Shown here: piece after piece, positions 1,797 through 12,162 of the stretch
How positions within the stretch are numbered: the stretch's first letter is position 1
Layout: every line of letters starts with the position of its first letter
DNA from: an uncultured Actinomycetes bacterium
Lineage (GTDB): Bacteria > Actinomycetota > Actinomycetes > Nanopelagicales > Nanopelagicaceae
Direction: 5' to 3'
DNA length: 64,000 bases
Assembly (NCBI GenBank): GCA_903822425.1
Contig: CAIJOY010000039.1
Span: 1-64,000, forward strand
Notes under the pieces: generated by a model
What the model was told of the DNA's origin: nothing
Seen by the model: the letters and a program-made list of their open reading frames with translations, nothing else
Databases searched by the model: none
Made by a program: the position numbers and the translations under genes

Positions 1797-3524
1797 ATGT
1801 CCAGCAAGATCCGATTGGCACTTGCGCAGATCAACCCAACTGTGGGGGATCTGGCGGGAAATGCTGAACTCATCAGCGATCAGATTGCTACCGCTCATAA
1901 AAATGGTGCCCATATTCTTGTTTTTCCGGAGATGGTTCTTACTGGCTACCCTGTCGAAGATTTAGCCCTGCGCTCCTCTTTTCGTGCTGCCAGCAAGAGC
2001 GCTATTGAAGCCCTTGCCAAGAAAGCGATGGCAGATGGATGTGGTGAACTTGTGGCCATTGTTGGCTACTTAGATGAAGCTCCGGCTGCGATGAACCGAT
2101 TAGGTCAACCACAAGGTGCACCTCAAAATGCCGTTGCGATCATCCACGGCGGAAAAATTAAAGCCCGCTATGTCAAGCACCATCTGCCCAACTACGGAGT
2201 ATTCGATGAATTTCGCAATTTCGTGCCGGGTCAAGAATCCTTGGTTGTGCGCATTCACGGAGTCGATGTAGCGATAGCAATTTGTGAAGACATTTGGCAA
2301 CAAGGCGGACCGGTGGCTGAGTTAGCACAACGAAAGCCTGGTTTGCTTCTTGTCCCTAACGGAAGCCCCTATGAGCGAAATAAGGATGATGCGCGGCTGG
2401 CATTGGTGCAAAAACGTGCCCGAGAAATTGGCGCACCCCTTGCCTATGTGAACATGACTGGCGGGCAAGATGATTTGGTTTTCGACGGAGACACCATTGT
2501 TGTAGATGCTCAAGGCCAGATCCTTGCCCGAGCTGAGCAATTTAGCAGCCAACTTTTGTTTGTAGATGTGGATGTTGAAAGCCAAACATCAGATCCCGAT
2601 GTTGTCATTAGTCAAGATCCTGTGGGTGCAGTTGCTCCAAGCACCGTGGGACCGTCGGCAATTGCACCTCGATTAGATGATGTAGCTGAAATGTGGCAGG
2701 CACTTGTATTGGGCCTTGGTGACTATGTTCGAAAGAATGGATTTTCCACTGTCGCACTAGGCGTTTCTGGCGGTATCGATTCAGCCCTTGTTGCAGCAAT
2801 TGCTTGTGATGCCCTTGGTTCAAAGAAGGTGCACGGAATAGCAATGCCCAGTAAGTACTCCTCGGATCACTCATTGACCGACGCTGCTGCCCTTGCTGCC
2901 AATACCGGGATCGCTTATCGCGTTGTTGAAATTGAGCCAATGGTTGCCTCCTTCCTATCAGCCCTGTCCTTAACTGGCTTGGCTGAAGAAAATGTTCAGG
3001 CACGAGTTCGCGGAACAACTTTGATGGGAATTTCCAACCAGGAAGGTCACTTAATTTTGGCCACCGGAAATAAAAGTGAATTAGCTGTTGGGTACTCCAC
3101 TCTCTACGGTGATGCCGTTGGCGGATTTGCACCTATTAAAGATATTTACAAGACCGATGTTTGGGCTTTGGCGCGTTGGCGCAATGCGATTGCACTCACT
3201 CGTGGAGAAGTGGCACCAATTCCAGCCAATTCCATATCCAAAGCACCTAGCGCAGAATTGCGACCAGGGCAGAAAGATTCTGACTCCTTGCCTGAGTATG
3301 AAATCTTGGATCGATTGCTCCTTGCCTATGTTGATGGTGATCTTGGAAGCAAAGAATTAATCGCATCAGGATTTGATGCAGCGATGGTGGCTCGAGTCAT
3401 TGCACTGGTAGATAAAGCTGAATATAAGCGTCGCCAATATCCACCAGGAACAAAAGTCTCTATTCGCGCTTTCGGCAAGGATCGCAGGCTACCCATCACT
3501 TCTCAATGGCGCGAGAAGCTCTGA
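1797..3524 (+). CDS. nadE: Glutamine-dependent NAD(+) synthetase
   Basis: Makes NAD+ from nicotinate adenine dinucleotide, ATP and glutamine. It is a 575-residue two-domain protein. The N-terminal nitrilase-type glutaminase has the Glu/Lys/Cys triad at E45 (FPEMVLTGYP), K127 (KHHLPNYGVFDE) and C163 (AICEDIW). The C-terminal PP-loop synthetase has SGGIDSA at 324-330. The length matches the short form of bacterial glutaminase-fused NadE rather than the about 680-residue mycobacterial form. The start is ATG 1797, where similarity begins; an upstream in-frame ATG at 1755 would add 14 residues with no similarity. The gene stands alone with its own promoter. Confidence 0.95.
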   Translation: MSSKIRLALAQINPTVGDLAGNAELISDQIATAHKNGAHILVFPEMVLTGYPVEDLALRSSFRAASKSAIEALAKKAMADGCGELVAIVGYLDEAPAAMNRLGQPQGAPQNAVAIIHGGKIKARYVKHHLPNYGVFDEFRNFVPGQESLVVRIHGVDVAIAICEDIWQQGGPVAELAQRKPGLLLVPNGSPYERNKDDARLALVQKRAREIGAPLAYVNMTGGQDDLVFDGDTIVVDAQGQILARAEQFSSQLLFVDVDVESQTSDPDVVISQDPVGAVAPSTVGPSAIAPRLDDVAEMWQALVLGLGDYVRKNGFSTVALGVSGGIDSALVAAIACDALGSKKVHGIAMPSKYSSDHSLTDAAALAANTGIAYRVVEIEPMVASFLSALSLTGLAEENVQARVRGTTLMGISNQEGHLILATGNKSELAVGYSTLYGDAVGGFAPIKDIYKTDVWALARWRNAIALTRGEVAPIPANSISKAPSAELRPGQKDSDSLPEYEILDRLLLAYVDGDLGSKELIASGFDAAMVARVIALVDKAEYKRRQYPPGTKVSIRAFGKDRRLPITSQWREKL

Positions 3525-3568
3525 GCTTCTGCGAAGAGTTCGCAAGTGGCGTTTTGGCCATAAGTGGC

Positions 3569-3574
3569 TAAAAT
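3569..3574 (+). promoter_or_regulatory. -10 box, leaderless cysteine leader peptide
   Basis: TAAAAT ends 6 nt before the ATG of the cysteine-rich leader ORF at 3581, so the mRNA likely starts at that ATG. Confidence 0.55.
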
Positions 3575-3580
3575 TTACCT

Positions 3581-3664
3581 ATGTTTGAAATCAAGGATTG
3601 GTTTTTTACGCGTCGTCGCGTGATTGATTTTGGGCGCGCTTGCACTTGCGCATGCTGTAACTAA
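3581..3664 (+). CDS. Cysteine-rich leader peptide upstream of cysK
   Basis: A 27-residue ORF, MFEIKDWFFTRR followed by RVIDFGRACTCACCN, ends 84 nt before cysK. Its C-terminal end carries four cysteines in six residues (CTCACC) just before the stop. Leaderless poly-cysteine leader ORFs in front of cysteine or sulfur operons are known from mycobacteria, where ribosome pausing at the Cys codons under cysteine shortage opens the downstream ribosome-binding site. Position, leaderless start and Cys run all fit that class. I did not find a clear anti-Shine-Dalgarno partner for the GGAGG of cysK, so the switching structure is not resolved. Confidence 0.8.
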   Translation: MFEIKDWFFTRRRVIDFGRACTCACCN

Positions 3665-3748
3665 TAACTGCTACAAAAAAGTTCTTAGTTTTAAATTCTC
3701 GATTTCAACCCAAATATCACTGTATTTAACAATTACCTGGAGGATTAG

Positions 3749-4681
3749 ATGAAGCTTTATAACAACATCACTGAAGTTGTAGGAAATACGCCCCTAGTTC
3801 GCATTAATCGCATAACAGATGGCGCAGCTGCACATGTCTACGCGAAATTAGAGTTTTACAACCCCACCAGCACAGTAAAGGACCGTATTGGTATTGCAAT
3901 GGTCGATGCTGCTGAAAAAAGTGGAGAATTAAAAGCTGGCGGAACCATTGTTGAGGCGACTTCTGGCAATACCGGAATCGCACTTGCCATGGTGGGCGCA
4001 GCACGTGGGTACAAAGTCATCTTGACGATGCCTGATTCGATGTCGAAGGAACGTCGCACCCTGCTACGTGCTTTTGGAGCTGAGTTGGTGTTGACCCCAG
4101 CGGCCGAAGGAATGCGCGGAGCGGTTGCAAAGGCCGAAGAGCTTGGCGCCAAAGATGGCGCAGTATTGGTGCGCCAATTCGAGAATGATGCAAACCCAGA
4201 AATTCACCGCAAAACAACTGCGGAAGAAATTTGGCGCGATACCGATGGCAGTGTTGCTGCCGTCGTTTCTGGCATCGGAACAGGTGGAACCATCACTGGT
4301 GTTGGTCAGCGCCTGAAAGAGTTAAACCCGGCAATTAAGATTTTTGCAGTTGAACCAGCTGCATCCCCGTTGCTAACGGGTGGTTCTCCAGCAGGGCATC
4401 CACTACAAGGGATTGGCGCAAATTTTATCCCTAATATTTTGGACACCAAGATTTATGATGAAGTCTTCGATGTGACCAATGATGATGCACTAGCTACAGC
4501 TCGCCGTGCCGGCGTAGAAGAAGGAATCCTTGCAGGAATCTCTTCAGGTGCTTCGCTGTGGGCTGCCTCCCAAGTGGCAAAGCGTCCAGAATTTGCTGGA
4601 AAAATCATCGTTGTCATCGTTCCTTCATTTGGAGAGCGCTACCTTTCAACGGTGCTGTATAAAGATTTGGTGGAGTTATAA
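3749..4681 (+). CDS. cysK: Cysteine synthase (O-acetylserine sulfhydrylase)
   Basis: Converts O-acetyl-L-serine and sulfide into cysteine. This 310-residue fold-type II PLP enzyme carries the PLP lysine K44 in PTSTVKDR, the substrate loop TSGNTG at 71-76 and the phosphate-binding [11 protein letters not shown] loop. The length is usual for CysK. The start ATG has a strong TGGAGG ribosome-binding site 6-7 nt upstream. It lies between the cysteine leader peptide and cysE (4-nt gap), giving a self-contained cysteine-biosynthesis operon that is probably attenuated by cysteine supply. Confidence 0.95.
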
Positions 4682-4685
4682 ATTG

Positions 4686-5189
4686 ATGTTGCATATTCTT
4701 GAAGATCTTGACAACGCATTAACTCGCGATCCTGCTGCGAGAAATCGCTTAGAGATTTTTTTGGCATACCCAGGGCCACATGCTGTGTGGGGTCATCGAA
4801 TGGCCCATTGGTTGTGGAACCACAAATTGAAACTTATAGCTCGAATTTGGTCCAACTTCACCCGCACAGCCACCGGCATTGAAATTCATCCTGGCGCAAA
4901 GATTGGGCGACGATTCTTTATCGATCACGGAATGGGCGTCGTGATTGGAGAAACCTCGATTATTGGAGATGACGTGATGATGTATCACGATGTCACTTTA
5001 GGAGCGCGTTCTTTTAATAAAGGAAAGCGTCACCCGACAATTGGTGATGGCGTCATTATCGGTGCTGGAGCCAGAGTGATCGGCAATGTCACCATTGGCA
5101 AAGGGGCAATTGTCGGAGCCAATACCTTGGTCACCCAAGATGTGGCTGAGCGTGCACATGTAGATGCTGCAGGTCTTTTTACTATCTAA
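4686..5189 (+). CDS. cysE: Serine O-acetyltransferase
   Basis: Acetylates serine with acetyl-CoA, the first step of cysteine synthesis, and supplies the CysK substrate. It is a 167-residue protein of the short CysE type: a helical N-terminus followed by left-handed beta-helix hexapeptide repeats from about residue 65. The catalytic Asp-His is at D80-H81 ([12 protein letters not shown]). I start at ATG 4686, 4 nt after cysK. The frame is open further upstream, but only because it overlaps cysK in another frame. The short C-terminal tail ends in FTI; CysE proteins use a C-terminal Ile to bind CysK, so a CysK-CysE complex is plausible. Confidence 0.92.
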
Positions 5190-10256: not shown

Positions 10257-10984
10257 TGTCGATGAAAATTCCTAATATCGCACCCGAGAAAATTCCGGCA
10301 CATGTTGCAATTGTTATGGATGGCAATGGTCGTTGGGCTAAAGCTCGAGGTTTACCACGCACCGCCGGACACGAAGCTGGTGAGGCAGCACTTTTTGATG
10401 TTATCGAAGGTGCAATCGCAATCGGGGTAAAAGAAATCAGTGCGTATGCTTTTTCCACAGAAAATTGGCGGCGCTCACCGGATGAAGTGAAATTTCTCAT
10501 GGGTTTTAACCGCGATGTTATTCGTCGCCGTCGCGACCAGATGCACGCTATGGGCGTTCATGTTCGCTGGGTGGGCAGACCCAAGCGTTTATGGAGCAGC
10601 GTTATTAACGAATTAGAACAGGCCGAAGAATTGACGGCGAAGAATAAAGTTCTGACACTAAATATGTGCGTTAACTACGGAGGCAGATCTGAGATTGTGG
10701 ATGCTGCCACGGCCCTGGCTAGAGACGTTAAACGAGGCAAATTGAGTGCGGATAAGATTTCCGAAAAAGTCTTTTCGCGCTATCTTGATCAACCCCAGAT
10801 GCGCGATGTGGATCTTTTTCTTCGCTCATCAGGTGAAATGCGCACCAGTAACTTTTTACCGTGGCAATCTGTTTATGCTGAATTTGTATTTATGGATGTA
10901 CTTTGGCCAGATGTAGACCGGACCACTTTATGGAAAGCCATTGAAGAATATTCCAAACGTGACCGGCGCTTTGGCAAGGCTTAA
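10256..10984 (+). CDS. uppS: Isoprenyl (undecaprenyl/decaprenyl) diphosphate synthase
   Basis: A cis-prenyltransferase that makes the polyprenyl diphosphate carrier for cell-wall synthesis. The 242-residue protein carries the signature [19 protein letters not shown] with catalytic D22 and the C-terminal [14 protein letters not shown] / Y-E--F motif region. Product chain length cannot be told here (C50 in mycobacteria, C55 in most bacteria). The start overlaps the recO stop, and the 3' end overlaps the convergent zur gene by 4 bp. Confidence 0.93.
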
Positions 10985-11346
10985 CAGTTAGAGCAAGTTC
11001 CAAAGACTTCAGCTGTATGTCCGATATCCCGAAATCCATGTTCTGCTGCAACACTTTTGGCCCATTTCTCGATCGCCGCACCTTCGATTTCGACGGTAGA
11101 GCCGCAGTTTTTACAGACAAGGTGATGGTGGTGAGAATCCCCGCATAAGCGATAGATCGCTTCGCCATCATCGCGTCTCAAAACATCAACGATGTTTTCT
11201 TTAAGCAAACTTTGCAAGGAGCGATACACAGTGGTCAGCCCAATGCGCTGTCCATTGCGTTGCATGAGTTTATAAATCTCTTGCGCACTTGCAAATCCAC
11301 CTGCGCGCTCAAGGGTGCTCAGAACCTTTGGATTAGAGCGGCTCAT
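10981..11346 (-). CDS. zur: Fur-family zinc regulator (Zur)
   Basis: A 121-residue Fur-family repressor: an N-terminal winged helix ([13 protein letters not shown] as recognition region) and a C-terminal metal domain. The structural zinc cysteines are C78/C81 and C118/C121, with HHHH at 72-75. Its start ATG overlaps the stop of a ZIP-type zinc importer (ATGA), and the promoter of that importer carries a Zur-box-like palindrome. This argues for Zur rather than Fur or PerR. It would sense Zn2+ and repress its own operon. A longer open frame to 11376 is rejected because of the ATGA coupling and the family N-terminus. Confidence 0.85.
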
Positions 11347-12080
11347 ATATTTCCCACAATTATCCACATTGCACATACTCCAACAATGGTGGCAAGCATC
11401 GTTAATCGTGAAGGATGGCGTGAATGCGCTTCTGGCAAAATATGCGATGTTGCCAAGTAGATAACGAACCCAGAAAAAGTGGCTAGATATATTGCTAGAA
11501 GGGGATCGCTGATTGTGATGTAGGAACCAAGGGCTGCGCCGCTAATTCGCATAATCGCATCTAGTCCTAAAAGTGCCGATGCGCTCTTGGTTAGGTGCCC
11601 GCTTTTAATTAGCAGTGAAACGGTATTAAGACCATCGCTAAATGCGTGCGATAAAATTGCGATGAAAACTGCATAACCCAAAGAATTGCTGACTTGAAAA
11701 GCGATACCTAGAGCAAGTCCATCGAGAAATACATGGCCTCCCATAGCAAGTGCGCCAAGGGTGCCAGCGATATTGACTGCGTGATTGTGATCATGACCGT
11801 AAGTGGACTGTGCCGGTTCGTGGGATCCAAATATCTGTTCTGCAAAATGCAGAAGAAGAAAACCTAGGACAAAGGCGATGGAGACGGTTCTAACATTTCC
11901 AAATGTGTTGCTGTTGAGTGTGAAAACTTCTGGAAGTAGATCAAATGCCACAAGTCCCAAGAGCAGACCAGCTGATAAACCCAAGACCAAGTGGAGGCGA
12001 TCGCGAGCGCGAATTGCTAAATAGCCCCCTGCAGTTGTCGACAGCGCTGTAACACCAGCCAAGGCGACGGCGATATTCAT
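11343..12080 (-). CDS. ZIP-family zinc transporter
   Basis: A 245-residue polytopic membrane protein of the ZIP (ZupT/GufA) family that takes up Zn2+ or related divalent cations. The metal-binding transmembrane motifs are seen as HVFLDGLALGIAF and HAFSDGLNTV, and a His-rich cytoplasmic loop (YGHDHNHAV) sits between helices. The start is ATG 12080. The frame stays open to 12143, but that stretch holds the promoter and Zur box. First gene of a zinc operon with zur (4-bp overlap). Confidence 0.85.
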   Translation of the reverse strand: MNIAVALAGVTALSTTAGGYLAIRARDRLHLVLGLSAGLLLGLVAFDLLPEVFTLNSNTFGNVRTVSIAFVLGFLLLHFAEQIFGSHEPAQSTYGHDHNHAVNIAGTLGALAMGGHVFLDGLALGIAFQVSNSLGYAVFIAILSHAFSDGLNTVSLLIKSGHLTKSASALLGLDAIMRISGAALGSYITISDPLLAIYLATFSGFVIYLATSHILPEAHSRHPSRLTMLATIVGVCAMWIIVGNI

Positions 12081-12086
12081 AAGTGG

Positions 12087-12092
12087 ACGATA
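12087..12092 (-). promoter_or_regulatory. -10 box of the zinc operon
   Basis: On the minus strand TATCGT lies 6 nt before the transporter ATG (leaderless), and TGACAA, 16 nt further upstream at 12114-12109, serves as -35. Confidence 0.55.
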
Positions 12093-12099
12093 ACAGGAA

Positions 12100-12114
12100 T
12101 GAAAATGATTGTCA
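12100..12114. promoter_or_regulatory. Zur box
   Basis: TGAAAATGATTGTCA is a 15-bp near-palindrome of the Zur type (TGA-AAT-A-ATT-TCA core). It covers the -35 element of the zinc transporter promoter, so bound Zur would block RNA polymerase. It also lies 64 bp upstream of glyS on the other strand; an effect there is possible but not indicated. Confidence 0.75.
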
Positions 12115-12162
12115 TTATCATAATCTCGCCTTAATGAGCGCAATGAATGCGCGAGGATCCTT

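Follow-up and report, generated by a model that had tools for sequence, protein, structure and literature searches.

A conserved upstream ORF with one fixed cysteine codon precedes cysK-cysE in Nanopelagicaceae and very probably acts as a cysteine-sensing leader

Introduction

The closest described systems are the leaderless polycysteine upstream ORFs (uORFs) of mycobacteria, which were first noted in PMC4633059 and act as attenuators (Canestrari et al. 2020, as related in PMC9094748, PMC13236596 and PMC9031893). The latter two papers describe them as translation attenuators. Candidate Cys leaders have also been listed for Mycobacterium cys operons, P. acnes and B. longum cbs (Seliverstov et al. 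2005, PMC1262725), and Rho was suggested in that study for the mycobacterial cys leaders, as in the tna operon. In tna, a released ribosome exposes a rut site that adjoins the leader stop codon (PMC10941005).

Here we describe a leader located upstream of cysK-cysE in a 64,000-nucleotide stretch of Nanopelagicaceae DNA, which in its entirety is called the window. Relative to the mycobacterial uORFs, as described in those sources, this leader is alike in its apparent leaderless start, short ORF, terminal Cys codons, sulfur/cysteine gene neighbours and homologous core. It differs in that no masking of the Shine-Dalgarno (SD) site was found, in that there is one invariant Cys with no required run, and in its distinct N-terminal WxFTRRR and its target, cysK-cysE. 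Reported complete genomes of the Nanopelagicaceae lineage lack sulfate assimilation (PMC5301498) and therefore need reduced sulfur.

Layout of the cysK-cysE leader locus

The features of the locus, with positions counted in the window, are:

3530-3544, plus strand: palindromic putative operator TGCGAAGAGTTCGCA (TGCRA-N5-TYGCA), -51 to -37 from the leader start
3569-3574, plus strand: -10 element TAAAAT of the predicted leaderless promoter, spacing to the start kept in 46/48 leaders
3581-3664, plus strand: predicted leaderless uORF of 27 aa, peptide MFEIKDWFFTRRRVIDFGRACTCACCN, C-terminus CTCACCN
3605-3637, plus strand: FTRRRVIDFGR core, codons 9-19, constrained at the amino acid level
3606-3623, plus strand: hairpin within the uORF, TTACGCG-TCGT-CGCGTGA, with covariation; broken in some lineages
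3653-3655, plus strand: codon 25 (TGC), the invariant Cys, located nine residues past Asp16; 45/46 unique Nanopelagicaceae peptides
3659-3690, plus strand: A/U-rich hairpin over the leader stop codon, AACTAA.AACT/AGTT.TTAGTT, in a subset of congeners only
3665-3733, plus strand: C-rich, G-poor, variable spacer, candidate Rho-entry region by the composition of 48 spacers
3738-3743, plus strand: Shine-Dalgarno site TGGAGG of cysK, accessible by prediction
3749-4681, plus strand: cysK, cysteine synthase A (TIGR01139, 445 bits, above cut-off)
4686-5189, plus strand: cysE, serine O-acetyltransferase (TIGR01172, 225 bits, above cut-off)

The initial annotation had read this region as a TAAAAT box, 6 nt, an ATG, a 27-codon ORF ending in CTCACCN, and 84 nt to cysK with a TGGAGG site, all of which we re-found in place. 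The 6 nt between the box and the ATG at 3581 read TTACCT, the 84 nt gap runs from the uORF stop to cysK, and cysK is followed by cysE after 4 nt. The upstream neighbor of the promoter and uORF is nadE (NAD+ synthase), which ends at 3524. Among 48 leaders the -10-like boxes are mostly TANNNT, with the start codon 6 nt past the box in 36 and 7 nt past it in 10 (46/48 in sum). This fixed -10/start geometry, together with the lack of an SD site, is what leaderless translation needs and indicates that the leader ORF likely starts leaderless. No consensus -35 box is evident, a sigma-70 scan gave no promoter call at the uORF promoter, and the peptide has no match in Pfam. A 42-aa ORF (3624-3752) that overlaps the start of cysK was taken as a chance occurrence because the spacers of relatives, which range from 53 to 157 nt, do not keep its frame.

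The uORF is conserved upstream of cysK

A DNA search of 41 related genomes recovered the region in 20/20 congeners, and the uORF lies before cysK in 21/21 genomes of the genus. A degenerate codon pattern gave one match per genome in 20 of these 21, with the 21st carrying an AGA codon instead, and a reversed control pattern gave 0 matches in the same genomes. When one genome per bacterial and archaeal species was scanned with a Cys-free pattern, FTRRR[VI][IV]DF, cysK was the next gene at 53/53 loci with the leader, and all 53 apparently belong to Nanopelagicaceae. The uORF is real, far beyond what chance would give, and its conservation lends good support to the earlier proposal that a Cys-codon leader controls cysK-cysE.

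Other genera of the family carry variants of the core (WFFTRNRVVDFCL, FTRRLVIDLCR and FTRRIVIDLHR) and further genera have no leader at all. At ten loci from sister genera cysK has no leader; in several of these, operator-like sites lie upstream and cysK itself seems to be transcribed leaderless from its own start. Nanopelagicaceae-type cysK leaders were also seen in six records that bear the names Streptomyces griseus, Clavibacter or Bifidobacterium breve, which are probably mislabelled MAGs.

Selection keeps a motif and one Cys in fixed register

The feature that is kept is W-x-F-T-R-R-R-V-I-D-F-G-R plus one Cys in a fixed register, not a run of Cys. Specifically, Cys occurs nine residues past the Asp (D+9) in 45/46 unique peptides, the lone exception having its sole Cys one codon later, and Trp occurs at D-9 in 46/46; both positions lie outside the search pattern and hence were not ascertained by it. 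Additional Cys positions are optional (D+7 in 28/46, D+10 in 16/46, D+5 in 10/46), six of the 46 peptides have a single Cys in total, and adjacent Cys amount to one CC pair in the window peptide and none in many relatives. Leader lengths are 25-32 aa, every one of the 46 peptides ends 9-11 residues past the Asp, and throughout the family the invariant Cys codon is separated from the stop by 0-2 sense codons (2 in the window leader). The pN/pS ratio is 0.255 across W..C and 0.046 at the Cys codon, and it is 0.047 for FTRRRVIDF, a segment that was ascertained through the search pattern.

The WxFTRRRVIDFGR motif is thus kept more strictly than the Cys run. The initial annotation had placed its emphasis on the run C-T-C-A-C-C and had called for its conservation to be compared with the rest of the peptide; in that comparison only codon 25 (D+9) is conserved, while the other Cys vary and some relatives have a single one. 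Its hunch that the Arg-rich centre matters finds good support in the strict conservation of the motif. Such very strong amino acid-level conservation outside the Cys codons would also be expected if the peptide acted in trans as a small protein, with its link to cysK being co-expression only. We consider this very unlikely, as a Cys codon in fixed register near the stop, a length within the above range and several different sulfur-gene targets fit a cis-acting leader better.

The leader belongs to a class-wide family of Cys leader peptides

On the evidence of sequence comparison, the window leader is homologous to actinobacterial Cys leader peptides, with which it shares the core RRx[VI]D[FLY]xRx5C. 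A profile built solely from non-cysK leaders (FTKRRVxDxGRLAGSLCRM and its relatives, from other sulfur operons) matched the window uORF with 46 bits (E 7.9e-12), and the leaders of this non-cysK set scored 19-51.7 bits against Ms5788A. The cysK-leader profile has matches in 129/297 class genomes, and elsewhere in the class the same kind of peptide precedes sulfurtransferase and sulfite reductase genes. With a profile cut off after D+3, and thus lacking the C-terminal Cys columns, Cys was present at D+9 in 30/30 of the top class-wide matches, which partly overlap the source sequences of the profile and so give a strong description and not an independent test. Both its profile match to leaders that precede other sulfur genes and its Cys at D+9 near the stop place this leader in the actinobacterial superfamily. 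Instead of the variant defined by a Thr/Ala-interrupted run that had been suggested for it, the leader is a branch of a class-wide peptide family.

The NCBIfam models NF042933, NF042934 and NF042936 share this core but miss the Nanopelagicaceae branch, which falls below all of their cut-offs. Specifically, NF042936 (Ms4527A) scored 13.9 bits (E 0.03) with the window peptide, under its curated cut-off of 45 bits. NF042933 (Ms5788A, cut-off 45 bits) had no match to the window peptide and scored 19-29 bits with related leaders from the same bacterial family. NF042934 (cis_reg_atten, cut-off 27 bits) matches 94/118 class genomes and had no match at E 0.01 in the window's own genome or in the family members searched. 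A text search of the literature for RRHVDL/RRRVIDF-type motifs found nothing relevant. Of the traits that mark a polycysteine attenuator, a leaderless start is found, as judged by promoter geometry only (46/48), and contiguous Cys codons are not. Actinobacterial Cys leaders are a known kind, of which the Nanopelagicaceae leader is a lineage-specific variant. Four points are new: the lineage, the fact that current models miss it, the rule of a single Cys in fixed register, and the pairing of such a leader with a Nur-like operator.

Fourteen loci in other Nanopelagicaceae carry another leader subfamily, FTKRRVxDxGRLAGSLCRM, most of whose members have one Cys only. It precedes an operon in which a DUF4395-like gene (named by eye) is joined by a Fur-family and a YgfZ-like gene and, in part of the genomes, by a sulfurtransferase. 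The Fur and YgfZ genes are present in the genome of the window, but no leader of this type was found there.

RNA structure and composition of the spacer

One way in which a leader of this kind could act is by translational attenuation, as PMC13236596 and PMC9031893 describe for the mycobacterial uORFs, with leader RNA pairing to the cysK SD region and a ribosome stalled at the Cys codons opening that pairing. In folding predictions the mean unpaired probability of the SD is 0.45 versus 0.39 with shuffled upstream sequence, and it is 0.51 both with a ribosome masked at the Cys codon and with one masked at the stop. The longest stretch that could pair with the SD region mostly measures 4-5 nt and lacks conservation, and folding did not reveal SD sequestration in the absence of stalling. 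Anti-SD pairing was rejected since neither the folding nor the complement analysis found any, which makes translational attenuation improbable. The predicted accessibility of the SD is also in line with the earlier hunch of a read-out other than SD masking.

A second alternative is intrinsic attenuation, in which the stop-overlapping hairpin at 3659-3690 and alternative folds would form an antiterminator/terminator pair. This hairpin folds at the same place in 11 congeners, as seen in an 11-sequence alignment, and its pairs are retained despite sequence change, for example in three of them. There is also a terminator-like element, TTGGGC-TTT-GCCCAA-CTTTTT, past the leader stop in genome G021. 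However, the hairpin is absent from the other congeners, about half of the genus, and from most other leader-bearing genera. No conserved terminator was found between leader and cysK when the leaders of relatives were compared, a scan of the window spacer found no terminator-like site, and Rfam had no element matching the leader region. We thus regard intrinsic attenuation as unlikely.

The hairpin inside the uORF (3606-3623) behaves as if it were also under selection. Of its cells, 84.8% are paired, and its covariation score was reached by 0/500 shuffles, with the covariation being carried mostly by one codon-third-position pair and confounded by kinship. The codons of Thr10 and Arg13 covary at their third positions, and double changes occur in separate genera.

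The 48 leader spacers have a mean C content of 0.238 and a mean G content of 0.105, with C exceeding G in 46/48, as compared to 0.246 and 0.215 in control upstream regions (C/G ratio 2.3 versus about 1.1); the spacers compared share ancestry, all controls were taken from a single window, and as a sign of a rut site the bias is weak. A C-rich, G-poor spacer adjoining the leader stop and the presence of a rho gene are features of a tna-type system that are consistent with, and not proof of, the use of Rho. The leaders of PMC1262725 are similar in having Cys codons close to the stop and no terminator, with Rho suggested, but they are from other lineages and their polyY motifs are not conserved, whereas the excess of C over G recurs across the Nanopelagicaceae spacers.

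A model for cysteine-dependent control

Judging from these comparisons, the uORF very probably senses cysteine. Of the interpretation that had been offered initially, the Cys leader, the Arg-rich centre and a read-out not involving the SD stand, and the weight given to the Cys run does not. We infer a Rho read-out by analogy with tna, and stalling under Cys limitation with a contribution of the nascent chain. The joint model, in which a wait for Cys-tRNA, the nascent motif and a shielded Rho site act together, is one that we hold to be somewhat better than an even bet. Transcription would begin at the leader ATG, such that each cysK-cysE transcript first carries a ribosome through the uORF. 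When Cys-tRNA is plentiful, the ribosome would reach the stop and leave, exposing the C-rich, G-poor spacer to Rho, which would bind and halt transcription before cysK. Under a shortage of Cys-tRNA, the ribosome would wait at codon 25, the invariant Cys, a wait that is probably made firmer by the nascent W-x-F-T-R-R-R-V-I-D-F-G-R in the exit tunnel. With no more than two sense codons between the Cys codon and the stop, a ribosome paused there would sit over the beginning of the spacer and shield it, and RNA polymerase would continue into cysK-cysE.

The strict amino acid-level conservation of the motif, which would be needless for a simple codon-counting attenuator, suggests a contribution of the nascent chain to stalling. 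With the Cys codon in the A site, the Asp and the Arg pair lie 8 and 11-12 residues, respectively, before the P-site residue of the nascent chain, and known arrest peptides contact the tunnel at about this depth. TnaC of the E. coli tna operon (PMC10941005) is alike in the proposed shielding of a Rho site by the ribosome and in having motif residues upstream of the stall codon. TnaC, however, senses free tryptophan, and its W-D spacing is 4 as compared to 9 in the window leader. We note the resemblance and make no claim of homology because this spacing differs.

A wider reading is that the whole actinobacterial Cys-leader family consists of cysteine-conditioned arrest peptides, for which RRx[VI]D[FLY]xR and one Cys codon suffice and a run is optional, with Rho as the read-out in Nanopelagicaceae. 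A tunnel motif at a fixed distance from one Cys codon would then turn a brief wait for Cys-tRNA into a stable stall. We put this forward tentatively, as possible and on balance doubtful. Should stalling depend on the motif, this family, which is at present characterized through its Cys runs, would be one of arrest peptides. The data in any case provide a sharp, testable rule, namely one Cys codon at D+9 behind an Arg-rich motif, for a peptide family with members in most of the class. They would also add bacteria that are among the most abundant in fresh water to those with leader-based cysteine control.

A Nur-box-like operator and Fur-family genes

The palindrome TGCRA-N5-TYGCA, with at least 9/10 arm matches at -49 to -55, is present in 46/47 leader promoters, relative to an expected frequency of ~0.4% per shuffled promoter. 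In the 64-kb window TGCGAAGAGTTCGCA is the only exact copy, with 0.72 expected by chance. This putative site at -51 resembles the Nur box, tTGCaa-N5-ttGCAA (PMC3919588), and may be a second input to cysK-cysE. Its near-universal presence, along with comparable sites upstream of cysK genes lacking a uORF, could be taken to mean that the operator alone controls these genes and that the uORF merely loads ribosomes. We judge this to be most improbable, as it leaves the conservation of the peptide and of its Cys codon unexplained.

Operator-like palindromes also stand at a fixed place before sulfurtransferase-type leaders and, in several congeners, before the gene of a transporter that resembles NiCoT nickel permeases (identified by eye), and a sulfur/metal regulon under a Fur-family protein is possible. 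One Fur-family gene lies in the window itself (10981-11376, minus strand), but it adjoins a ZupT-like transporter and has the look of a Zur, and it was rejected as the regulator of the operator; the better candidate is another gene of the Fur family, located on a different contig. In the window region 10981-12143 (minus strand), the Zur-like gene follows the ZupT-like transporter, and a Zur-box-like sequence, TGATAATGACAATCATTTTCA, is located near the gene start.
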